Of a stretch of 24,964 nucleotides of DNA, positions 924 to 24,512 are shown in pieces. The DNA comes from Planctomycetia bacterium (GTDB taxonomy: Bacteria > Planctomycetota > UBA1135 > GCA-002686595): positions 1 through 24,964 of the forward strand of contig SXKQ01000043.1 in NCBI GenBank assembly GCA_005778045.1, in the 5' to 3' direction. The stretch's first letter is position 1, and the number at the start of each line of letters is the position of its first letter. The position numbers and the translations under genes were made by a program. The notes below the pieces were generated by a model, which was not told where the DNA came from, did not search any database, and saw nothing but the letters and a program-made list of their open reading frames with translations.

Positions 924-1943
924 ATGCCCATGACGTCAAGCCGAGTTTCCGCTGCCGACCTCGCCGGTACCGAGGAGTACATCCGCCGCGTGCGCGAGCG
1001 CGTCGGCACCGTAGTCGTAGGCCAAGACGTGGTCGTCGAGCGCCTCCTGATCGCGCTCTTCTCTGGCGGCCACCTGCTCCTGCAGGGCGTGCCGGGCCTC
1101 GCCAAGACGCTGCTCGTCTCGACGCTCTCCAAGTCGATCGACTTGGGCTTCGCGCGCGTGCAGTTCACGATCGACCTGCTGCCCTCCGACATCCTCGGCA
1201 GCGAGGTGCTCGACCAGCGCACGAACGAGTTTCGCGTGCGCAAGGGTCCGATCTTCACCAACCTGCTGCTCGCCGACGAGATCAACCGCGCGGCGCCGAA
1301 AGTGCAGGGTGCGCTGCTCGAGGCCATGCAGGAGCGCAAGGTCACGATCGGGCCGGAGACGTTCCGCCTGCCCGCCCCGTTCCTCGTGATCGCGACGCAG
1401 AACCCGGTCGAGCAGGCCGGCACGTTCGAGTTGCCCGAGGCGCAGCTCGACCGCTTCATGCTCGTGCACCGCCTCGACTACCCCTCGCCGGCCGAAGAGC
1501 GCGAGGTGCTGAGGCGCAACGCCGCGCTCGGCATCCAGCGCCAAGAAAAGGGCGCGATCGTGCAGACGGAGTTCGACGTACTCGACTCCCGCCCGGTCGG
1601 CTCGGTGACGGAGATCGTCGCCGCCATGGAGGCCGTGAGCTCGATCCACGTCAGCGACACGTTCGTCGATCACGTCGTCGAGGTCGTACACCGCACGCGT
1701 GCGCACCCCGACGTCGAGCTCGGCTGCAGCCCGCGCGCGGGGATCTCGCTGATCAAGGCCTCGCGCGCGCGAGCGCTGATGCACGGTCGTTCCTACGTCG
1801 TCCCCGAGGACCTCTACGCGCTCGCCGAGGACGCACTGCTGCACCGTATGCGCCTCAAGTACGGCTCGATCGCCGAGGGCAAGACCGGCCGTCAGGTGCT
1901 CGACGAGATCCTGCGCTCGATGGGCGACGAGGCGCGCGCCTGA
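924..1943 (+). CDS. moxR: MoxR-family AAA+ ATPase
   Basis: This 339-residue protein has the usual MoxR length and motifs. The Walker A is GVPGLAKT at residues 55-62, the Walker B is LLLADEINRA with D118 and E119, and the sensor-1 region contains IATQNPVEQAGTFELPEAQLDRF split around residues 150-170. The C-terminal lid domain includes SPRAGISLIKASRARAL. MoxR ATPases act in the cytoplasm as chaperone-like partners of DUF58 and VWA proteins, which follow directly here. ATG 924 is the first start; a second in-frame ATG is at 930, and neither has a strong Shine-Dalgarno, so the exact start is open. The stop overlaps the next start by one base (TGATG), indicating translational coupling. It is the first gene of the Bat-like operon. 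Confidence 0.95.
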   Translation: MPMTSSRVSAADLAGTEEYIRRVRERVGTVVVGQDVVVERLLIALFSGGHLLLQGVPGLAKTLLVSTLSKSIDLGFARVQFTIDLLPSDILGSEVLDQRTNEFRVRKGPIFTNLLLADEINRAAPKVQGALLEAMQERKVTIGPETFRLPAPFLVIATQNPVEQAGTFELPEAQLDRFMLVHRLDYPSPAEEREVLRRNAALGIQRQEKGAIVQTEFDVLDSRPVGSVTEIVAAMEAVSSIHVSDTFVDHVVEVVHRTRAHPDVELGCSPRAGISLIKASRARALMHGRSYVVPEDLYALAEDALLHRMRLKYGSIAEGKTGRQVLDEILRSMGDEARA

Positions 1944-2842
1944 TGAGCGCGGGGCCGAAGGTCGACCCGGCGGTGCGCGCGCAGGAAGGCCACGTCGAGG
2001 AGCTCGCGACGCTCGATGCGCGACAGTTCGCCATCGCGATCCGCAAGCTCGCCGACAGCCTGTCCTACGGCATCGACAAGTCGGCCTATCTCGGCAGCGG
2101 CACCGAGTACGTGCAGTCGCGGCCCTACCACTGGGGCGACCCGATCCGCTCGATCGACTGGCGCGTCACGGCGCGCACGCGCAGGCCGTACGTGAAGGAA
2201 TACGAGGCGCCGAAGAGCACGCCCTGCTACCTGTTCCTCGACACATCGGCCTCGATGACGATCGCCTCGGGACGCGCCAGCAAGTACGAGCTCGCGCTCT
2301 ACATCGCGGGCGGCCTCGCGCTCGCGTGCCTCGACCGCGTGAGTCCGGTGGGTGTGATCGGCGCAGGCGAGCGCACGATGCGCGTCGAACCGAGCCTGTC
2401 GCGCGCGCGCGTCATGCAGTGGCTCCTGCAGCTGCGCACGCATCGCTTCGACGAACGCACGACGCTCGCCCAGCGCCTGCGCGAGGTGCTTCCGACGCTC
2501 GGTCAGCGCTCGCTGCTCGTCGTGCTGTCGGACCTGCACGACGAAGGTGCGCTCAAGGCGCTGCAGCACGCCGGCCACGCGCACGACTGCGTCGCGCTGC
2601 AGCTCGTCGACCCCGCCGAGTCCGGGTTGCGCGGCGCGGGTTTCCTGCGGGCGCGGGAGGCTGAGACGGGCCGCGAGTTCGTGACCAGCGGACGCGCGGC
2701 GTGGAGTGATCCGCGCGAGCTCGCGAGCGCCTTGGTGCGCTCGGGCGTCGACTGCCTGACGCTGCGCGCGGGCGAGCCGTGCGCGTCGAAGCTGCGCGAG
2801 ATGTTCAAGAACCGCGGCGGCGTCGCGCGAGGCACGCGATGA
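1943..2842 (+). CDS. DUF58 domain protein with VWA-like fold
   Basis: A 299-residue protein with the DUF58 signature: GSGTEYVQSRPYHWGD, then RSIDWRVTART, then VKEYEAP at residues about 50-95. A MIDAS-like LDTSASM follows around residue 100. There is no transmembrane helix, so it is expected to be cytoplasmic or peripheral. DUF58 proteins are almost always encoded next to moxR and are thought to be MoxR partners or adaptors. The ATG overlaps the moxR stop by one base, and the stop overlaps the next gene by four (ATGA). A longer reading of the same frame reaching upstream to about 689 is out-of-frame shadow over moxR and is not used. Confidence 0.92.
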   Translation: MSAGPKVDPAVRAQEGHVEELATLDARQFAIAIRKLADSLSYGIDKSAYLGSGTEYVQSRPYHWGDPIRSIDWRVTARTRRPYVKEYEAPKSTPCYLFLDTSASMTIASGRASKYELALYIAGGLALACLDRVSPVGVIGAGERTMRVEPSLSRARVMQWLLQLRTHRFDERTTLAQRLREVLPTLGQRSLLVVLSDLHDEGALKALQHAGHAHDCVALQLVDPAESGLRGAGFLRAREAETGREFVTSGRAAWSDPRELASALVRSGVDCLTLRAGEPCASKLREMFKNRGGVARGTR

Positions 2843-3660
2843 GCAGCTTCTTCCCCGGCTTCGACCTCTCCCTACCGCGCGGAGCGCTTCCGGGCGAGGA
2901 CCTGCTGCGCGCATCGCCATCGGTCGGCATGCCGGTGCGCTGGAACGACGTCGTGCTGCCGGGCACCGAGCTCGTCGCCGTCTCCGCGGACCGCGAGGCT
3001 CCGGTCGCGCTGCGCATCGTCGCTACGCGCCCGCACGGCGGCGCATTTCGCTACGACTTCGAGTACTGGGGCCTCGAGTCCGGCGCGCACGATCTGCGCA
3101 CGCTACTGCAGCGGCGCGATGGCTCGTCCACCGCCGACCTGCCCGAGCTGCGCGTCGAGATCCGCAGCGTGCTCGCCGCGGAGGGCGCGGTCCGGCCGAA
3201 CGCTCCGCGGCCGGTCGAACTGCCGCAGCTCGGCGGCTACGGCGCGCTGCTGGTCGCCGGCGGGATCGTGTGGATCGCCGGTCTCGTGGCGATCCTCGTC
3301 GTCGGGCGTCGCCGTCGCGCCGCGGAGAGCGCCGGGCAGGCGCGAGTACGCTCGCTCGCGGAGCGCCTCCAGCCGCTCGTCGAGCGCGCGATGCGCGGCG
3401 AACTCTCGCGCGAGGAGCGCGCGCAGCTCGAGCTGTCGCTCGTGGCGCTGTGGCGTCGCAGGCTCGGCCTCGAGGGGTCGCGCCCCGTGGAGGTCATAGC
3501 GCAGCTGAAGCGCCATCCCGAGGCCGGTCCGCTGCTCGTGAGACTCGAGGAGTGGCTCCACCGACCGGATGCGCGTGGCGCCGGCGAGATTCCCGCGCTG
3601 CTCGTGCCCTATCGCGAGCTCCGCGCAGACGAACTCGACGGCCCCGGAGGCGCGCGCTGA
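2839..3660 (+). CDS. Single-pass membrane protein of the Bat-like operon, unknown function
   Basis: This 273-residue protein has an N-terminal domain (1-130) rich in predicted beta strands, with no clear cleavable signal. One strong transmembrane helix spans about 133-155 (GALLVAGGIVWIAGLVAILVV) and is followed by a GRRRR stop-transfer cluster. A charged helical C-terminal domain (160-273) contains LAERLQPLVERAMRGELS and WRRRLGLEG. The positive cluster after the helix suggests the N-terminal domain is outside and the C-terminus inside. DUF4381-type proteins often occupy this slot between DUF58 and VWA genes, but I do not see their short proline/tryptophan-rich signature, so I leave it unnamed. 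It overlaps DUF58 by 4 nt and the following VWA gene by 1 nt, so co-translation is likely. Confidence 0.85.
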   Translation: MSSFFPGFDLSLPRGALPGEDLLRASPSVGMPVRWNDVVLPGTELVAVSADREAPVALRIVATRPHGGAFRYDFEYWGLESGAHDLRTLLQRRDGSSTADLPELRVEIRSVLAAEGAVRPNAPRPVELPQLGGYGALLVAGGIVWIAGLVAILVVGRRRRAAESAGQARVRSLAERLQPLVERAMRGELSREERAQLELSLVALWRRRLGLEGSRPVEVIAQLKRHPEAGPLLVRLEEWLHRPDARGAGEIPALLVPYRELRADELDGPGGAR

Positions 3661-4586
3661 TGGAAGTTCTCGCGTCGTTCCGCCACCCGTGGATGCTCGC
3701 GCTGCTCGTGATCCCGGCGTCCCTTTGCCTGTGGACGTGGCAGCGGCGCGGCCGCGCGCTCGCGCTCCCCTTCGACCACGTGCGGCGAGCACGCGACTCT
3801 CGCGTGCGCTTTCTGCTGCGCGTGGCGGAGTGCGTCCCCGCCCTGCTGCTTGGATGCGCGCTGTTCGTGCTCGCGGGCCCGCAGTCGTGGGCCGAGCCGC
3901 GCTCGAAGCGCGCGCTGACGAACATCCAGTTCTGCGTCGACGTCTCCGGCAGCATGTTGGCCCAGTTCGGGTCCGGTGATCGCTACGACGCCGCCATGGT
4001 CGCGATCAACTCGTTCGTCGACCTTCGCGAGGGCGACGCGTTCGGTCTCACGTTCTTCGGCAACAACGTGCTGCACTGGGTGCCGCTCACCAACGACATC
4101 TCGGCCTTCCGCTGCGCGCCGCCGTTCATGCACCCGCGCAACCTCCCGAGCTGGTTTGGAGGCACCGAGATCGGCAAGGCGCTGCGGGCGTGCCGCAAGG
4201 TGCTGGCAGAGCGTCCCGACGGCGACCGCATGATCGTGCTCGTGAGCGACGGCTTCAGCTCGGACCTCTCGGGCGGGCAGGACGAGGAGCTCGCGCGCGA
4301 GATGCGCGCCAACGGCATCGCCGTCTACACGGTGCACATCGCCGAGGGCGCCATTCCCGACGAGATCGTGCGCATCGCGACGCTCACCGGCGGAGATGCC
4401 TTCAAGCCGGAGGACGAGGGCGGACTCGAATCGATCTTCGCGCGCATCGACGCCATGGCGAAAGCCAAGCTCGAGAAGAGCCAAGCCGAGGCGTCCGACG
4501 ACTACGTCCCGTGGTGCCTCGCGGGCCTCGGGGCCCTGCTCGCCTTGCTGCTCACCGGCTTCGGACTGAGGTACACGCCGTGGTGA
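3660..4586 (+). CDS. VWA-domain membrane protein, BatA-like
   Basis: A 308-residue protein with the BatA/BatB layout. Two N-terminal hydrophobic helices lie at about 11-27 and 59-73, a VWA domain spans about 88-270, and a C-terminal helix spans about 286-306. The MIDAS metal site is complete in outline: D94-x-S96-x-S98 (FCVDVSGSM), a conserved threonine in FGGTEIGKAL, and an aspartate in VLVSDGFSS. This topology places the VWA domain between the helices on one face of the inner membrane, usually taken to be the periplasmic side in Bat proteins. The ATG overlaps the upstream stop by one base, and the stop overlaps the next GTG by four. The general role, MoxR-linked membrane complex assembly or stress tolerance, is inferred from family context. 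Confidence 0.9.
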   Translation: MEVLASFRHPWMLALLVIPASLCLWTWQRRGRALALPFDHVRRARDSRVRFLLRVAECVPALLLGCALFVLAGPQSWAEPRSKRALTNIQFCVDVSGSMLAQFGSGDRYDAAMVAINSFVDLREGDAFGLTFFGNNVLHWVPLTNDISAFRCAPPFMHPRNLPSWFGGTEIGKALRACRKVLAERPDGDRMIVLVSDGFSSDLSGGQDEELAREMRANGIAVYTVHIAEGAIPDEIVRIATLTGGDAFKPEDEGGLESIFARIDAMAKAKLEKSQAEASDDYVPWCLAGLGALLALLLTGFGLRYTPW

Positions 4587-5629
4587 CGCCCGCCGACCTG
4601 CCGGAGTCGCTGCCCGAGTGGTGCGCGGCGCTCGCGCTCGCGCTCGCGGCGCCGGCGGAGTGGCTGCACTCCCGGCGAGTCGCGCGCGTTGCGCGCCTCG
4701 CGTTCGGGCCGCTGGAAAGGCCTGCAGCGTGGGCCCTCGGGGCACCGTGGCTGCGCGCCCTATCGTGCTCCATGGTGGCGTGGGGACTCGCGACACTCGC
4801 CACCATCCCGCCGCGCGCCCACTCTGGCGACGCCGCGCTCGCGCAGCGCCTCGAGAATCCACGGCACGTGCTGATGGTGCTCGACGTGAGCCCGAGCATG
4901 CGCCTCGTCGACGCCGGCAAGGACCAGAAGCAGAGCCGCATGCAGCGCGCTCGCGACGTGATGGAGTCGTTCTTCGACCGCGTCCCGTTCGCGCAGACGC
5001 GCGTGAGCGTGATCGCCGTCTACTCGGGTGCGAAGCCGGTCGTGATCGACACGAGCGACTTTGAGGTCGTGCGCAACATCCTCGGCGACCTGCCGATGCA
5101 CCACGCCTTCAAGGCCGGCAAGACCGAGCTGTTCGCGGGACTCGAGGAAGCCGCGACGGTGGCGAAGGACTGGGAGCCCCGCTCGACCACGCTGGTCGTC
5201 GTGAGCGACGGCGACACGGTCCCGGCCACCGGCATGCCGCGCATGCCCGCCTCCGTCCACCGCACGATCATCGTCGGCGTCGGCGATTCCCAGACGGGTC
5301 GCTTCATCGACGGCCGCCACTCGCGGCAGGACGTGGCAACCCTGAAGCAGATCGCGGCGCGCCTCGGCGGCGTGTTCCACAACGCCAACGAGTCCCAGAT
5401 CTCGACGGCGGTGATCCAAGAGTCCTTCGCCAGCGAGGACGAGAGCCCCTTCGAGCGCCTGACGCGCCGCGAGTACGCGTTGCTCGCCATCGGCGTCGGA
5501 GCGGCCCTGCTCTCGCTCCTGCCCTTGGCCCTGCACCTCGCCGGGACCCGCTGGCGGCCCGGCGCGTCCACAGGGGAGTCCAGAGCCCAAAAATCCCGGG
5601 CCGCAGGCGCCCCGGTTGGGCTAGCATGA
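4583..5629 (+). CDS. Second VWA-domain membrane protein, BatB-like
   Basis: This 348-residue protein starts at GTG 4583, chosen because it overlaps the preceding stop by four bases. A hydrophobic helix lies at about 57-75 and a VWA domain at about 95-285, with MIDAS residues D101, S103 and S105 (LDVSPSM), a threonine in AGKTELFAGL and the aspartate of VVSDGDTVP. A strong helix around 293-315 is followed by a short basic tail. Paired VWA membrane genes are the hallmark of Bat operons (batA-batB). The two VWA proteins differ markedly, so this is not a recent duplication. Its last codons overlap a -10-like box (TAGCAT, 5622-5627), and its TGA overlaps an ATG that opens a 14-codon mini-ORF leading into the next gene. 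Confidence 0.9.
   Translation: MTPADLPESLPEWCAALALALAAPAEWLHSRRVARVARLAFGPLERPAAWALGAPWLRALSCSMVAWGLATLATIPPRAHSGDAALAQRLENPRHVLMVLDVSPSMRLVDAGKDQKQSRMQRARDVMESFFDRVPFAQTRVSVIAVYSGAKPVVIDTSDFEVVRNILGDLPMHHAFKAGKTELFAGLEEAATVAKDWEPRSTTLVVVSDGDTVPATGMPRMPASVHRTIIVGVGDSQTGRFIDGRHSRQDVATLKQIAARLGGVFHNANESQISTAVIQESFASEDESPFERLTRREYALLAIGVGAALLSLLPLALHLAGTRWRPGASTGESRAQKSRAAGAPVGLA
5622..5627 (+). promoter_or_regulatory. Candidate -10 box upstream of the selenoprotein gene
   Basis: The sequence GGGCTAGCAT contains TAGCAT, a reasonable -10 hexamer (TAnnAT), 39 nt before ATG 5667. Nearly identical CTAGCAT boxes precede the genes at 13617 and 20829. A matching -35 is not evident. If used, it would give the selenoprotein gene its own transcript with a leader of roughly 30 nt containing the GGGAGG ribosome site, despite lying inside the operon. 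Confidence 0.4.
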
Positions 5630-5670
5630 GCGCGCGCGCACCGGGCTCGCGGGAGGTTCGAAATCCATGA
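5626..5670 (+). other. Telescoped 14-codon mini-ORF bridging two operon genes
   Basis: The ATG at 5626 overlaps the TGA of the second VWA gene (ATGA). Its frame reads 14 codons and stops at TGA 5668-5670, which itself overlaps the ATG of the next gene at 5667 (again ATGA). It therefore bridges the only gap between otherwise overlapping genes. It could carry terminating ribosomes to the next start. No own Shine-Dalgarno is visible and the peptide (MSARAPGSREVRNP) has no recognisable function, so coupling rather than a product is the likelier role. It may be coincidence. Confidence 0.3.
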
Positions 5671-6416
5671 GAAAGCTCCTGATCTTCACCTGGTTGCTCC
5701 TGCCCGTCGGGGCAGCGGCGTACCACTACGGCCCCGGACAGGAACGTGTCCGCGAGGACGCCGCGGCGGCGCAAGTCGCGCTGGCGCAGGGTCACGTGCG
5801 CGAGGCGCGCGAGGTCGCGGCAAAGGAGGGCGATGCGGCGGCGCGCGGACTGTGGTCCGAGGTCGAGCGCACGCTCTCGGAGGCGATCGCGGCGCTGCCC
5901 GCGGAGCGCACGAGCGACCTGCGTCGCCTGCGCCTCGAGCGCGCCAAGGCGCAGATGTTCATCTCGAAGCTGCCCGAGGCCCGCACGGAGCTCGAGGGCC
6001 TGCTCGGCGAGCTCGAGTCCGATGCCAGCGCCGATCCCGCGCTCGTGCTCGACACGCGCGACGCGCTCGCGAACGCGCAGTACTACACGACCTGGCTGCT
6101 GCGCCTCGAAGGCGCCGCACCCGAGGAGTGGGAGCGCGAGATCGACGCCTCGCGCCAAAACTACAAGCTCGTCGCCGAGTCGCTGCTCGCCGAGGGGGAC
6201 GGTGACGGCGCCGCGCGCGCGCAGGAGAGCCTCGAGTCCTCGATCCGCCTCGCGCGAATGGACATCAAGGACCTGCAGGGCCTGCCACTGCCGTCGCAGT
6301 GAAAGGGCTGTGGATCGGGCCGCGGTCGCGGCTCCAAGAGCCAGAGCAAGGGACAGAAGCCTTCCGACGCGCGCGGTGCGAGCTCCGGCCCGCCGCCCGA
6401 CGGCGGCGGCTCCTAG
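5667..6416 (+). CDS. Candidate selenoprotein: secreted TPR-like Bat-operon protein with UGA-encoded Sec (UxxC) in its C-terminal tail
   Basis: The start ATG 5667 has a strong GGGAGG site at 5651-5656. Residues 1-18 form a signal peptide (MRKLLIFTWLLLPVGAAA), followed by an alpha-helical TPR-like region (about 25-205) with REAREVAAKEGDAAARG and ARTELEGLLGELE, resembling BatC/BatE-type proteins. A conventional reading stops at UGA 6300-6302 after 211 residues. The frame then continues for 36 codons to TAG 6414-6416 and encodes a Gly/Ser/Lys/Gln-rich tail beginning KGCGSGRGRGSKSQSKGQK, the type of low-complexity tail such proteins often carry. Read as selenocysteine, residue 212 forms U-K-G-C with C215, a UxxC pair analogous to CxxC. 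A SECIS-like hairpin with a GGUC loop sits at the right distance (6317-6334). The product would be 249 residues, exported or periplasmic. If the UGA simply terminates, the product is the 211-residue form. Sec decoding is inference. Confidence 0.75.
6317..6334 (+). promoter_or_regulatory. Bacterial SECIS-like hairpin downstream of in-frame UGA
   Basis: Positions 6317-6323 (GGGCCGC) pair with 6328-6334 (GCGGCTC) in 7 bp including one G-U, closing a GGTC tetraloop at 6324-6327. The loop begins after 21 intervening nt from the UGA. Bacterial SECIS elements lie in the coding region just after the UGA and carry a G in the first loop positions. In E. coli fdhF the SelB-contacted loop is also GGUC, about 18 nt after its UGA. 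The bulged U of the E. coli stem is not obvious here. The lack of a following T-run argues against a terminator. Confidence 0.7.
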
Positions 6417-6543: not shown

Positions 6544-9500
6544 ATGCAGGCTCGAATGATGGCGCGCGCCCTCGCGGCGGCGCTCCTGTGGTGGTCCGCT
6601 GCCCACGCCCAGCCGGTCATCCAACTGGGCGAGCTCGGCTACGTGCAGATGGAATCGGGCGAAGTCATGGAGTTCGCCGAAGGCGACCAGCCCGCCGAGC
6701 AGGACGAGGCGAGCGAGAAGAAGCCCAGCAAGCCGGGCCCGCGCACGCAGAAGCTGCGGCAGCTCGGCTACGACCGGCGCCCCTCCGCGATCCTCGCGGC
6801 GTGGGCCAAGGTGCGCGAGACGCAGGTGGAGCCCTCGGAGGGCACGGGCGAGGTGAAGACCTCCGCCCTCGAGCCCGAGCCGAAGACCGGCGCATTCAGC
6901 GGCGCCGTCATCACCGCGGCAGGCTCCTCGACCTCTGTCGTCGTGAGCGGCACGACCGCGGCCATTCCGCTCACACTCATCCCCCCGACGGGCAGCACCG
7001 CGCAACCGGCGACGATCACCATCTCAGCCGGCAGCGCGCTCCCCACCGCGACCGCCACGGCGGCGCCCATTGCGACGGTTACGGCCGCTCCCAGCGCGAC
7101 GGCCTCGTCCGCGGGAGCAGAGCCTGCGGCCGCTGCGGCCGGCACGGAGGAAGCTGTCGCCATCGATCCGCGAGCCGAGGACGAGGCGCGCAAGGCGAAG
7201 GAAGAGAGCGCCCGGCAGGCCGCCGAGCAGAAGGCCATCGACGCGGAGCTGAAGCAGTTCCAGCGCGACGTCACGCTCGGCGAGTGGACTTCGGTCAAGG
7301 CCGCCTTCGCGCGCTGGCAGGAGGACGAGCAGAAGGCCGGCTACGAACAGCTGCTCAAGTCGCTGCAGGAGGGCCCGCGCGAGCGCGCGCAGGTGCACCC
7401 GCAAGGCCAGCAGTACATCGAGAAGAACCAGTTCTCCCCCGCCGACGTGCTCGGGCTCGCCGCTGCCTGTCCGCACAAGCTCTCCGACAAGGAACTCGCG
7501 GCCCTCGGCACGCTGCTGACGCAGGCCCTCGAGCAGGGCCACCAGATCTCGAGCTTCGTCGCCCTCGTGAAGGCGCGCGTGGACGAGCCCGGGTTCGCCG
7601 TCGATCGCCGCCAGATGGCGCGCATCCTCGTCGGTGCCGGCAAGCCCGACGAGCTCGAGCCGTTCGTCCCGACGCTCGATGAGGCGCTCGAGCGCGGCGA
7701 TCGCGAGGGCCTCAACCTGATCTCGCGGCTGTGCCTCGCGCGGCACGCGAAGGATGCGAGCACCGTCTGGCTCGAGCGCGCCTGGAACGCGACGCAAGCC
7801 GTGCTCGCCGTCGGCGAGGTCAGCGAGAGCGCCAAGAACGAGGCCATCACGCGCGCCGTCGAGCTCGCGCCGAAGCTGCGCGCGGAGCTCGGCGCCGCGT
7901 GGCTCGACGAGAGCTTCACAGCCCGTCCCGAGCGCGGCATGGAGATCCTCGCCGCCATCGGCTCGACGGCCTCGAAGGCGCTTTCGATGGCGCCCACCGA
8001 CGCGGATCGCCGCGAGCGGCTGCTCGAGCTGCAGTCGACGGCCGCCAAGGCGCTGCTGCGCGCCGCGCCCGAGCTCGCGGCGCGCTGGCAGCCCCAGCTC
8101 TCGCTGCTCGCGTCGAACTGGCTGCGCGAGGCGCTGCACAGCTACTCGAACGACACGTCGACGTCGCTCGGCCCGCAGATGCGGCGCGACATGTACGGCA
8201 ACTTCTTCTACTACGACTTCGACGACGAGCAGCGCGGCTGGAACGGTCGCGGCGGTGCCGCGGCGATCAAGACCGGCAAGATCCTCGAGGCCCGTCCGAG
8301 CGACGAGTGGGTCGAGCTCGTCGAGCCCACGCTGCGCCCGCGTCTGCGCGTGGCCTACGCGCAGCTGTTCCTGAAGGTCGGCGAGGAGATCGACGCCTTT
8401 CCGTACATCGAGGCGCTCGCGAAGACCGACCCGATCCCAGCCAAAAGCCTCGTCGACGAGTTCCTGCGCGTCTGGGCGCGCAAGCACGACCCCAACCAGA
8501 ATCAGGGCCGCTCGAACCCCTACATCTACATGTACGGCTTCGACCAGCGCGCCAACGCCATTCCGCTGACGCGCTCGAAGCAGGAGCGCGCGCTCGCGGA
8601 GCTCGGCGAGTGGGTCGGACGGCTGCGGGCGCTCGAGGTCGAGATCGATCAGAAGCTCGTAGCGGCGGCGTTCCGCGCCGCGCACAGCCAGGCCGAGATC
8701 TATCGCCTCGAGACGCTCGAGAGCATCTTCGGCTCGGTCGACGCGCTCGATCCCGAGACGCTCGCGGAGCTCGTCGGCGCGATGCGCACGAACCTCGCGG
8801 GCGTGTGGCGCGATCCCGCCCTGCAGAAGGACAAGAGCACCCAGCGCAAGCAGAAGGACATCGAGCAGGAAGTGCTGCGCGGCTACGGGCTCGCGCGCGC
8901 CACGCTCGACCGCGCGCTCGGGAAGCACGGCGACGCTTGGCAGCTGTGGATGGTCCTCGGCGCACTCGAGCACGACGAGAACCAGTTCCGCTACGAGCTG
9001 AAGAAGGACGCCGAGTACTCAACGCGCCGCACGAAGGCGTTCGAGACCTTCGCGCGCGCCGCCGAGCTCTATGCGGGCTCGCGCGCGAGCGCGGAGCCTT
9101 CGAAGGACTCCGCGCGACTCTACGAGACGTGGTTCTACGCCGCGCTCGGAGCCAGCGACCTCAACCGCATCGACGCGAAGACCCAGCTCGCCACGGGCGA
9201 GATCGCGCGCATCAAGGCCGCCCTTGAGGCGCTGCGGCCCGAGCGCGTCGCGCGCCACGTCGAAATGTTCGGCAACTCGCTCACGACGGGTATCGGCAGC
9301 TGCAATCCGGCCGTGAAGTCGCGCTACGTGCGCCAAGGCCTCGCCATCACCGGCGAGACGAAGATCACGCGCGAGCTGCAGCAGCTCGAGAGCTATTACG
9401 GCGACCTCGTCACCGAAATCCGCCTGCACGCGGAGGTCGACGGCCCGAGCGAGGTTGGCCATCGCTCCCCCTTCGGCCTGCGCATCGACCTGCGCCACAC

Positions 9501-20828: not shown

Positions 20829-23800
20829 ATGCTGCTGCACTTCCTGCTTGCCACCGCCCTGCTCGCGCAGGCCCCCGCTCCCGCGCCAAAGCCGGCGCAG
20901 GTTACCCCGTTCACGGTCGCCCTCGACGGGGCCCGCTCCGCGCTCGCTGTCAAGGACGTCGAGCGAGCCCGCGTCCAGCTCTGGCGCGCGCTCGAGCGCG
21001 ACTCTCGCTCCACCGCCGCGTGGGCGGTGCGTGCGGAGCTCGCGGCGGCGACCGGCGACCGCGACGAGGAGCTGTACGCGCTCCACACGCAGCTGCGGCT
21101 CTCGATCGCCCAGAAGCTTCCGAAGCCTGAGGTCGACGCCCTGCGCGCGCGCATCGTCGCGCTCGATCCGATCGCGGCCGACCTGTTTGGCATGAACGCG
21201 CGCTTCATCGGCACGCTCGAGCCGATCGCGGCCGCCTACGAGAAGGATGGTCGTCCGCACTCGGCGATCCGCGTGCACAAGCTGATCCTCGCGATCGACC
21301 CCGAGTACTCCGCCTCTCAGCAGGCCATCGAGCGCATCGCCGCGCTCCCCGATCCGAGCCTCGCCGGAGACGCGAAGCCCAAGGACCTGCTCGCCGACGT
21401 CAGTGCCGAGTGGATCGCGAAGTTCGATGCCGAGCACGCGACGTGGGACACGCGCGCGAGCCTCGAGCGCGAGAACTACACGACCTACACCAACGCCGGC
21501 TACGAGGTGCTCGTGCGCTCCGCCGAGGCGATGGAGCAGATGAACCGCTTCTACCGTGTCTTCTTCCAGTACGGCACGGAAGAGGACGGCAAGACGGTCC
21601 CGCGCATCGACCTCAACATCTTCAAGCTGCGCGACGAGTACCTGAAGCTCGGCCTCGGCCCACCCGTCGAGTGGTCGGGCGGGCACTTTACCGGTGGCGC
21701 GGTCGAGACCTACATCGAGGGGCAGGGCTTCGACGGCATGACGGGCACGTTGTTCCACGAAGCCGCGCACCAGTTCGTGTCGCTCGCCACGGGCGCGGCG
21801 GGCTGGCTCAACGAAGGCCTCGCGAGCTTCTTCGAGGGTTGCCGCATCCTCCCCAACGGCACGGTGCTCATGAACATGCCGGCCACGCACCGCCTGTTCC
21901 CGCTCGCGGAGAATATGGAGCGCGGCTGGATGAGCGGTCCCAACGACGGCATCGATCCGGCGAACCCCTCGAAGAGCGCTCCCGACAAGGCACCGACCTT
22001 CCGCATCGTGGTCGAGAACCAGTACGCGTGGGGCCCGCCGTGGTACTCGCCGACCTGGGGCGTGGTGTTCTTTCTCTACAACTATCAGGACCCCGTCGAC
22101 GGTCGTTTCATCTACCGGCGCGCGTTCCGCGAGTACGTCGACGCCTCGGGCGGCCTCGATGGCAAGACCGCCGTGCAGAAGTTCGAAGAGGTTGTGCTCG
22201 GCCAGCCGCTGCCGCCGATCAAGGGCTTCGACCGCGAGGACGCGCCCGACGTCGTGCTGCCGAAGTCGATCGACGAGCTCGACCCGATCTGGAAGACGTG
22301 GACGCTCGAGCTGCGCGACGAGCAGATCGGGCGCATCGAGCGCAGGCGGCCGTACCTGCGCTGGGCTCGCGCGGCGCTGCTCGCCAAGGATGACGTCGCG
22401 GCGCAGGAGCACTTCGAGAAGGGGCTGGTGTCGACGCCGGACGACGTGGAGCTCGCGCTCGAGTTCGCGGAGTTTCTCGCGGGGCGCAAGGATACGGACC
22501 GCGCGGCGCGACTCGCGCTCGAGGCGCTGCGCGAGCTCGAGACGCGCAAGCCCGTCGACGAGAAGGCGATCGACCGCGTCGACCGCTTGCTCTCCAAGTG
22601 GGATCCCAAGCGCGCGGGAATCGAGCGCGCGCAGCGGGATCTGCTCGCCGCCGCGCAGGGGCTGATCGACCGCTACGAGCAGGCCACCCGTCCGATGATG
22701 GTGATGGACCTCGCCTGGCGCCTCGGCCGCGACCTCCAGGAGCCGCAGCTGTTCGAAGCCTACGAACGCGCCCTGCGCGCGAGCGGCCGTTCGCTCGCGC
22801 TGTGGGAGCTCGCCTACAACGAGTCCAATCTCGAGGGCTGGGACAGCGGCGGAAACACCTCGTTCCAGGCGGCAGGGTCGTTCCTCGACGCTGCCTTCCG
22901 CGACTACGCGCCAGCGGAATTCGACTACCAGATGCTCGCCCTGCAGCGCGTCACGTCGGGCGACTACTCGCTCGAGGCGGACGTACTCGCGCAGCGCGGC
23001 GACTGCAACTTCACCGGCCTCGTTTTCGGCCGCAAGGACGCAAACAACTTCCACGCGCTCGTGCTGTTCCCCGGCGCGCCGCGGCAGAAGGACAGCAAGG
23101 CCGCGGACAGCGCGTGGATCGACCTGGCTTCCTTCTACGGCGGTGGCACCACCAAGACGTGGCGCCACGTTCCCGTCGCCGCCGACACGGCCGCCGATGG
23201 GCAGAGCGCGACGGCGCGCTGGCGCAAGCTGCGCATCGACGTCGCCGGCGCGAAGATCGACTGCTGGGTCGATGGCCAGCTCGTCGCCACGCACGAGTTC
23301 GCCTCGCGCGAGGTGCTCGCCGGTGAGATGGGATTGCTGCAGGGCCGTGGTCGCGCTCGCTTCAAGGACGTGCGCTTCCTCGCGCGCGACCCGCGCGATC
23401 CCGCGAGCCGTCTCGAGCGCGAGCTGCGCATGGAGAAGCTGCGCGCCTCGGGCGACGAGGCGATCGCCGGCAGCTACGTCGGGCTGATTCCGCGCTTCCC
23501 AGAAGTCACGCGCTGGGCGCGCGTGCCGCGCTCGAGCTGGGCGGAGGCGGGACTCGTGCCCCAGCTGCTCGTCTTGTGGTCGATCGAGCAGAACGAGCTG
23601 ATTCCGCTGCAGGAGTGGCTGCGCGACCTCGATGCCCGCTACGGCAAGGTCGGCCTGCGCATCGTGTCGATCGCGTCCCCCAACGACGACGGCAAGCTCG
23701 AGGCGTACCTGCGCGAGCATGCCTTCCCCGGCTCCGTCGGCGTCGATCGGCGCGAGGGCACGGGCCTGGGCCTGACGCAGAAGCGCTTCTTCATCGAGCG

Positions 23801-24512
23801 CTTCAACCTGCCCCGGCTGCTGCTGCTCGACATCGACGGCAAGGTCGTCTGGGAAGGTGATCCCGGCTTCAAGATCGGGGATCGCTGGGCTGCCGGCGTG
23901 GAGAGCTACCTCGACGCACCGCTGGCAGAGCTCGTCAAGACGCGCAAGCTCGACGTGCTGCGCGAGTGGCTCGAAGGCTGGACGAGCGCGGGCGCCGCGG
24001 AGCTCGCTGCAGGCGACCTCGAGAAGGCATGGCCGCGCATGCAGGTCGCCAAGGAGCTCGACGGCCAGCTCGTGCCTGCGGCCGTCGACGTGCAGCGCAA
24101 GCTCGCAGCGCTCGAGGCCGTGTTCGCTGACCTGCCGCGCGAAGGCGCGCGACTGGAGAAGGAGGGTCGCGCCGCCGCGATGCGCCAGCTCGTCGCGTGG
24201 GCGAAGCTCGCGGGCATCGAGCCGGACAAGGCGCTCGCCGCGAAGCTCAAGCCCTACCTCGAGGGATCGCAGGCGGCCCAGTGGGAGCGCGTCGCCAAGA
24301 CGCTCGAGACCTACGCGCCGCGTATCGCGAAGGATCCCGGCCTCGGCGCCGAGCTCGCGGACAAGCTCGCTGCGATCAAGAGTGAGTTTGCAAAGGAACT
24401 CGCGGCCGATGTGCGCTCCGCGAGCGGCGATACCAGCCGACTCTCGGCCGTGATCGCTGCGGCAAGCCGTGCGCCTGCACGCTGGCTCGCGCGCGAACGC
24501 TTCGGCTGGTAG
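20829..24512 (+). CDS. Secreted multidomain protein: TPR, gluzincin-type peptidase (DUF1570-like), lectin-like and thioredoxin-like domains
   Basis: A 1227-residue protein. The signal peptide (MLLHFLLATALLAQA) is followed by TPR-like helices (about 28-200). A metallopeptidase region (about 205-450) has zinc motif H310-E311-x-x-H314 (FHEAAHQF) and a candidate third ligand E329 in WLNEGLASFFEG, the DUF1570/peptidase-MA pattern. More TPR-like helices lie at about 505-575. A lectin-like/DUF1080-like beta sandwich (about 663-855) contains YSLEADVLAQRGDCNFTGLV, LRIDVAGAKIDCWVDGQLVA and ARFKDVRFLARD. A thioredoxin/TlpA-like fold (about 890-1020) has LLVLWSIEQNE and a cis-Pro-like NLPRLLLLDIDGKVVW; the usual WCxxC cysteines are replaced (S918, Q921), so it should not be redox-active. 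A helical C-terminus ends the protein. Action is likely outside the cytoplasm; the substrate is unknown. Confidence 0.88.
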   Translation: MLLHFLLATALLAQAPAPAPKPAQVTPFTVALDGARSALAVKDVERARVQLWRALERDSRSTAAWAVRAELAAATGDRDEELYALHTQLRLSIAQKLPKPEVDALRARIVALDPIAADLFGMNARFIGTLEPIAAAYEKDGRPHSAIRVHKLILAIDPEYSASQQAIERIAALPDPSLAGDAKPKDLLADVSAEWIAKFDAEHATWDTRASLERENYTTYTNAGYEVLVRSAEAMEQMNRFYRVFFQYGTEEDGKTVPRIDLNIFKLRDEYLKLGLGPPVEWSGGHFTGGAVETYIEGQGFDGMTGTLFHEAAHQFVSLATGAAGWLNEGLASFFEGCRILPNGTVLMNMPATHRLFPLAENMERGWMSGPNDGIDPANPSKSAPDKAPTFRIVVENQYAWGPPWYSPTWGVVFFLYNYQDPVDGRFIYRRAFREYVDASGGLDGKTAVQKFEEVVLGQPLPPIKGFDREDAPDVVLPKSIDELDPIWKTWTLELRDEQIGRIERRRPYLRWARAALLAKDDVAAQEHFEKGLVSTPDDVELALEFAEFLAGRKDTDRAARLALEALRELETRKPVDEKAIDRVDRLLSKWDPKRAGIERAQRDLLAAAQGLIDRYEQATRPMMVMDLAWRLGRDLQEPQLFEAYERALRASGRSLALWELAYNESNLEGWDSGGNTSFQAAGSFLDAAFRDYAPAEFDYQMLALQRVTSGDYSLEADVLAQRGDCNFTGLVFGRKDANNFHALVLFPGAPRQKDSKAADSAWIDLASFYGGGTTKTWRHVPVAADTAADGQSATARWRKLRIDVAGAKIDCWVDGQLVATHEFASREVLAGEMGLLQGRGRARFKDVRFLARDPRDPASRLERELRMEKLRASGDEAIAGSYVGLIPRFPEVTRWARVPRSSWAEAGLVPQLLVLWSIEQNELIPLQEWLRDLDARYGKVGLRIVSIASPNDDGKLEAYLREHAFPGSVGVDRREGTGLGLTQKRFFIERFNLPRLLLLDIDGKVVWEGDPGFKIGDRWAAGVESYLDAPLAELVKTRKLDVLREWLEGWTSAGAAELAAGDLEKAWPRMQVAKELDGQLVPAAVDVQRKLAALEAVFADLPREGARLEKEGRAAAMRQLVAWAKLAGIEPDKALAAKLKPYLEGSQAAQWERVAKTLETYAPRIAKDPGLGAELADKLAAIKSEFAKELAADVRSASGDTSRLSAVIAAASRAPARWLARERFGW

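Follow-up and report, generated by a model that had tools for sequence, protein, structure and literature searches.

A candidate selenoprotein family in Bat-like MoxR-DUF58-VWA operons of planctomycetes, with a predicted Sec-Cys redox tail

The 24,964-nt stretch of DNA analysed here (contig SXKQ01000043.1 from a Planctomycetia bacterium, referred to as the window in the rest of the text) carries, downstream of a set of MoxR, DUF58 and VWA genes, a reading frame in which a UGA codon is followed by an open tail. An earlier note on this DNA had read the UGA as selenocysteine (Sec) and had proposed that an exported TPR selenoprotein provides the MoxR/VWA machinery with a redox centre. Two questions arise from this proposal: is the UGA decoded as Sec, and what would such a residue do beside a MoxR ATPase? 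The features of the locus are listed in Table 1.

Table 1. Features of the candidate selenoprotein gene and of its neighbours, in order along the window.
Feature	Position	Strand	Basis
MoxR AAA+ ATPase gene	924..1943	+	Pfam AAA_3 (4.8e-62), AAA_lid_2
DUF58 gene	1943..2842	+	Pfam DUF58 (2.1e-35); ATG at 1943 overlaps the MoxR stop
Family-less gene between the DUF58 and VWA genes	2839..3660	+	Open frame; one hydrophobic stretch by eye
First VWA gene (BatA-like)	3660..4586	+	Pfam VWA_2 (6.7e-15); NCBIfam BatA_Lepto (1.1e-14), under cut-off
Second VWA gene (BatB-like)	4583..5629	+	Pfam VWA_2 (9.8e-12); NCBIfam BatB_Lepto (6.1e-6), under cut-off
Candidate selenoprotein gene, 249 residues with UGA as Sec	5667..6416	+	Reading frame; conserved relatives
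Predicted N-terminal membrane helix, residues 2-20	5670..5726	+	Model helix 2-20; hydrophobic sequence
TPR-like helical body, residues 23-204	5733..6278	+	Structure model; fold matches
In-frame UGA, predicted selenocysteine 212	6300..6302	+	Frame reading; relatives' codons
Conserved Gly/Arg/Lys-rich tail, predicted disordered	6303..6413	+	Conservation; low pLDDT
Partner Cys 215 codon	6309..6311	+	Cys in 34/37 rows of alignment A1
SECIS-like hairpin, loop GGUC 6324-6327	6317..6334	+	Fold; covariation; loop 21 nt past UGA
Large downstream gene, 1351 aa	6532..10587	+	Open frame; relative downstream in 68/69 loci

The UGA is in frame and the frame runs on to a TAG at 6414-6416, as previously described, although the tail comprises 37 sense codons and not the 36 reported. 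The UGA corresponds to residue 212 and is followed by K-G-C-G, which agrees with the U-K-G-C motif proposed for residues 212-215. At 72% GC, a stretch of 36 codons stays open by chance with a probability of 0.54, or about half the time, so that openness of the tail is by itself weak evidence, and it is conservation that counts; the high GC at third positions, which had also been invoked, carries no weight by itself. A scan of one genome per species (GTDB) yielded 38 loci, of which 31 have UGA and five have TGC (Cys) at the Sec codon; of the other two, L037 is ended by the end of its contig and L038 is distant. All 36 UGA and TGC loci keep the tail, which opens with U/C-x-(G/N)-(C/T) and closes on a motif like PPPDG(S/G)GS, so that homologues extended past the annotated stop provide both the conserved tail and the Cys variants that the earlier note had named as support. 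In the alignment, conservation of Sec or Cys is limited to residues 212 and 215, and no Cys of the body is conserved. Between close relatives, codon differences amount to 27 synonymous and 26 nonsynonymous in the tail compared to 252 and 137 in the body, indicating that at this distance constraint on the tail is not above that on the body.

Of the 392 planctomycete genomes sampled, 49 have the family. In 35 of these carriers the frame contains one or two TGA codons and in the remaining 14 no stop, and none of the 49 has an in-frame TAA or TAG. One of the stop-free carriers, L093, is a partial match and, like L037 and L038, was left out of further counts as partial or distant. A sample of 288 genomes of Verrucomicrobiota yielded 8 carriers, two of them with TGA, and conservation of the tail spans two phyla. 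Rubritalea profundi, a cultured carrier, has the UGA form (L036), and Haloferula sp. BvORR071 has a Cys form (L035). Among the 120 listed of 1047 protein database matches, 119 stop at the residue preceding the UGA or Cys codon. In P0020, the remaining one of the 120, the Sec codon is replaced by a Cys codon and the protein continues across the tail, the frame matching in all other respects; the tree groups it with the UGA form L011 as its fully supported sister.

The SECIS-like hairpin described in the earlier note is indeed found at the right place, with its GGUC loop 21 nt past the UGA and a stem that covaries. Of the 55 distinct UGA rows, 53 have a GGT at one of codons 8-11 past the UGA, compared to 2 of 14 Cys rows; over the 200 codons upstream, GGT accounts for 15% of the Gly codons of the UGA rows. 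Minimum-energy folds place GGU (GUU in a deep clade) in an apical loop in 51 of the 55 UGA rows, and the stem loop lies 18-33 nt past the UGA, or past the first of two. Compensatory changes on both sides were seen at all six stem pairs, and the covariation score was matched by none of 500 shuffles on a set of 20 cores and by none of 300 when all 37 distinct cores were used. The 20 cores were picked by hand from the 55 UGA rows as varied examples, with the deep clade excluded, and the outermost stem pair is unpaired in half of them. Folding energy relative to synonymous shuffles was alike in UGA and Cys forms (mean z of -1.08 and -1.12, respectively); on the sequences compared, it is the conserved loop and the covarying stem, and not folding energy, that tell the two forms apart. 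No SECIS family of Rfam matched. The double-UGA locus L022 has its own GGU 21 nt after each UGA, and L018 and L023 retain GGU solely for the second. The motif R-G-R-G is absent from the Cys forms among the 120 listed matches, and P0020, a Cys form that stands beside a UGA form, retains it. This conserved protein motif is largely the hairpin itself.

The genome G001, from the same species as the window, encodes the whole set of Sec genes that the earlier note had proposed to look for, namely a tRNA-Sec (71 bits, anticodon UCA), SelB (305), SelA (499) and SelD (306). The SelD gene of G001 (L097) holds an in-frame TGA of its own, as do five of the seven SelD matches in the eight genomes searched. 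With the two genome samples taken together, SelB or tRNA-Sec was detected above cut-off in 58 of 59 UGA genomes compared to 6 of 17 non-UGA genomes (P = 2e-8, Fisher's test). The sole UGA genome with neither above cut-off is G030, of 1.2 Mb; the tRNA match of G035, barely above cut-off, is a tRNA-Ser according to ARAGORN and was not counted. The general frequency of SelB is 236 out of 392 sampled planctomycete genomes. Because related genomes are not independent, the supported independent contrasts are limited to three, and a tree-aware test of UGA against Sec machinery is in line with the association and not significant (median P = 0.5). The Cys-form genome G020 lacks tRNA-Sec, SelA, SelB and SelD above cut-off. 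Four other Cys forms, L074, L087, L088 and L089, coexist with both SelB and tRNA-Sec in their genomes (G095, G082, G378 and G115, respectively), suggesting that Cys is not simply a consequence of the loss of the Sec machinery.

The kept tail, the Cys relatives, the covarying hairpin and the Sec machinery of the same species all support the selenoprotein proposed in the earlier note, and as far as sequence can tell the UGA is almost certainly read as Sec. Were the UGA instead an ordinary stop, the likeness downstream would be due to chance or would be a relic. The database records, which end the protein at the UGA, fit such a stop, as does the ease with which an open run of this length arises. 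The conservation of the tail in two phyla, the Cys codons that replace UGA, the lack of UAA and UAG in all 49 carriers and the covariation of the hairpin speak so strongly against it that we give it almost no weight. The number of rows with an in-frame TGA also led us to weigh a genome-wide reassignment of UGA, or its suppression without selenium. We found no evidence for either. L006, L007 and others end the same gene on a UGA after the tail, showing that UGA also works as a stop, and in all five loci scanned for a tRNA with a UCA anticodon this tRNA is tRNA-Sec; reassignment or suppression is thus extremely improbable.

As for the genomic setting, the genes follow one another as MoxR, DUF58, an unnamed gene, two VWA genes, the candidate gene and the large gene, and from MoxR to the second VWA gene consecutive starts overlap the preceding stops by 1-4 bases. 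According to Pfam, the MoxR, DUF58 and VWA genes are consecutive in the window as they are in a Bat operon, the name used in the earlier note. However, Pfam scans of the operon genes of the window detected no BatD domain, and the name holds only in part; from its sequence the operon would be better described as Bat-like, of the MoxR-DUF58-VWA type. A Pfam scan gave no match for the unnamed gene, and the 1351-aa product of the large gene has no Pfam or NCBIfam family above cut-off. The closest relative locus compared, L001, shares 95% DNA identity with the window across 11,454 aligned bases.

This setting is shared by most of the 76 loci that entered the context counts (the repeats L045-L049, L051, L055 and L056 were excluded). 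Of the 74 loci whose upstream sequence extends for 1.4 kb or more, 64 have a VWA gene upstream in the same orientation, which in 56 of them is no further than 400 nt away. With at least 4.7 kb upstream, MoxR is present in 34 of 41 loci and DUF58 in 35 of 41, and of the 69 loci that extend 1.4 kb or more downstream, 68 have a relative of the large gene there. The 10 loci without an upstream VWA gene include L015, L027, L033 and five of a deep clade with adjacent Cys and Sec, of which six other loci (L080-L084 and L086) have the complete gene row.

Three further observations concern the genes of the window. The first VWA protein has a Cys in the sequence F-C-V-D-V-S-G-S-M, beside its MIDAS motif, that is shared by 41 of the 42 rows in the alignment. 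ARAGORN called a tRNA-Ser (cga) at 9072-9154, inside the 1351-aa frame, which is probably a false call. A 1227-aa frame at 20829-24512 has a C-terminal part that looks thioredoxin-like by eye and is devoid of CxxC.

Turning to the protein, the description of the product as an exported TPR protein is supported in its TPR part by a structure model that aligns to TPR chains and by fold matches, and export is a prediction. Pfam yields no TPR match for the window's protein, whose Pfam rows are all below cut-off and which matches no NCBIfam model above cut-off; a Pfam TPR domain is detected in 3 of 120 listed relatives. The modelled body is predicted to be a TPR solenoid and the tail to be disordered. 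The N-terminal helix is predicted to act as an anchor that leaves the body of the protein extracytoplasmic.

Sec and Cys in the tail differ widely across the family in number and arrangement. The commonest forms are UxGCG and UxGCS, and most UGA forms have one Sec and one Cys. The spacing of the pair varies (UxGC, UxGTU, UxxxxxU, CU), which a flexible redox pair would tolerate, and there are also Cys-cluster forms such as CxGCCSGxCxC. Six loci with a double UGA would hold two Sec in the tail (UQGTU in L018, L022 and L023; USGNGTU in L068-L070). L073 has a Sec with no nearby Cys. The loci L075-L086 have a tail with G-G/A-C-U-Q-G, in which Sec directly follows Cys and has a shifted position, along with their own GGUU-loop hairpin; they form one fully supported clade of planctomycetes, the deep clade referred to above. 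On the best tree (91 bodies, excluding the same repeats as in the context counts), a minimum of 10 changes of the UGA/Cys label is required. The well-supported branches alone force at least four changes for UGA with one Sec and at least five for Cys. L091 is labelled N in the tree though its tail has CPGGQC; L090-L092 were excluded from the count of 10 changes and kept as non-UGA in the pairs test.

We thus consider it probable that the selenoprotein is a membrane-anchored TPR subunit, as predicted, of a MoxR-DUF58-VWA (Bat-like) machine, and that its flexible Sec-Cys tail serves as a redox arm in the envelope; this role of the tail is one that we infer. In such a system, SelB bound at the hairpin would bring Sec-tRNA to the UGA, and the membrane TPR adaptor would hold the flexible arm close to the VWA proteins. 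The Sec and Cys of the tail would alternate between selenol/thiol and selenenylsulfide, and the arm could reduce or isomerise disulfides, or clear oxidant, in clients remodelled by the ATPase-driven VWA complex. The electrons would perhaps come from a DsbD-type carrier; 16 of the 17 genomes examined encode DsbD_TM. Cys lineages have at least three cysteines at the same spot.

The main rival to a redox arm is an arm that hands over metal, the Sec and Cys of the selenoprotein tail binding a soft metal such as Cu(I) or Zn and passing it to a client opened by MoxR/VWA, by analogy with NorQD and iron. MoxR/VWA pairs involved in metal insertion are described, at abstract level, in PMC13036017, and the Cys-rich forms favour a metal site as well, 118 of 120 listed Cys-type matches having CxxC and at least three Cys among the first 14 residues of the tail. 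A metal arm is disfavoured by how much the would-be ligands differ in number and spacing, from forms rich in Cys down to the single Sec of L073, and by the retention of just one Sec and one Cys in most UGA forms, and we regard it as unlikely. Alternatively, the protein could be a genuine selenoprotein that stands outside the MoxR/VWA machine, shares the operon for co-regulation and acts on its own, for instance as a peroxidase-like reductant of the envelope. The loci without an upstream VWA gene would be explained in this way. However, the gene is accompanied by VWA, MoxR and the large downstream partner in most loci, and TPR bodies usually bind proteins, which makes an independent role improbable. 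The redox arm of a MoxR/VWA machine remains the reading that we prefer.

Several known systems resemble parts of this one. The Bat gene set, in which the TPR proteins BatC and BatE are found beside MoxR, DUF58, BatA, BatB and BatD, is outlined in PMC5700661 and has in common with the window a MoxR gene, a DUF58 gene and two VWA genes before a protein that, in the window, is modelled as TPR-type. The window differs by having a conserved tail with Sec or clustered Cys, by the lack of BatD in Pfam and by BatA and BatB models that score below their cut-offs. The name Bat is no proof of a role in oxygen defence, since deletion of all bat genes of Leptospira biflexa was reported to cause no oxidative-stress phenotype (summarised in PMC3557215). 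In NorQD, a MoxR AAA+ ATPase and its VWA partner remodel a client, and MoxR and VWA are shared with the present locus; the abstract names no selenoprotein and no TPR arm (PMC13036017).

The likeness to two other Sec-bearing proteins would lie in the way they work. Thioredoxin reductase ends in a C-terminal Gly-Cys-Sec-Gly, a redox pair on a flexible arm that recalls the adjacent Cys-Sec of L075-L086. In contrast, the candidate protein has no Pfam match above cut-off to a flavin or NADPH domain. Eukaryotic selenoprotein S is tied to the AAA+ ATPase p97. Like selenoprotein K, it is a membrane protein with a near-C-terminal Sec, paired with Cys (outlined in PMC3628699 and PMC5725882). Unlike these, the candidate has a body predicted to be a TPR solenoid, a hairpin of the bacterial SECIS type and neighbours of the MoxR/VWA kind, and the likeness would be one of function.

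A 2026 inventory comprises 119 prokaryotic selenoprotein families, among which a UxxC-type motif and a hairpin right after the UGA are common too, and its Table 1 has no TPR, VWA or MoxR entry (PMC13188914). No matching selenoprotein appears in the parts consulted of PMC12013277, PMC2398784, PMC9312934 and PMC5029168. Selenoproteins have been reported in two planctomycete strains (PMC4807772). A full-text search, chiefly of open-access articles, for a selenoprotein together with MoxR, VWA, Bat or TPR returned no relevant report among the matches listed. NCBIfam and Pfam have no model naming the family of the candidate product. Altogether, with no family model, no inventory entry and no relevant paper among the matches listed, the locus appears to represent a new selenoprotein family and a new form of MoxR/VWA (Bat-like) operon.

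One consequence for planctomycetes is that a selenoprotein family with UGA in 35 of 392 genomes is shortened in the public protein records. A more far-reaching possibility, which we put forward tentatively and hold to be doubtful, is a selenium-powered branch of MoxR/VWA systems, in which ATP-driven remodelling would be coupled to a Sec arm that swings from an extracytoplasmic TPR adaptor, a single step both opening envelope clients and resetting their disulfides. The chemistry of the arm (Sec-Cys, Sec-Sec, Cys-Sec or multi-Cys) would then have changed repeatedly at one fixed site in two phyla. A reactive Sec on a flexible arm would be a chemical handle for catching the clients of the machine, by alkylation, 75Se or trapping of mixed selenenylsulfides, and the repeated exchange of Sec and Cys at a single site amounts to a natural experiment on the benefit of Sec.
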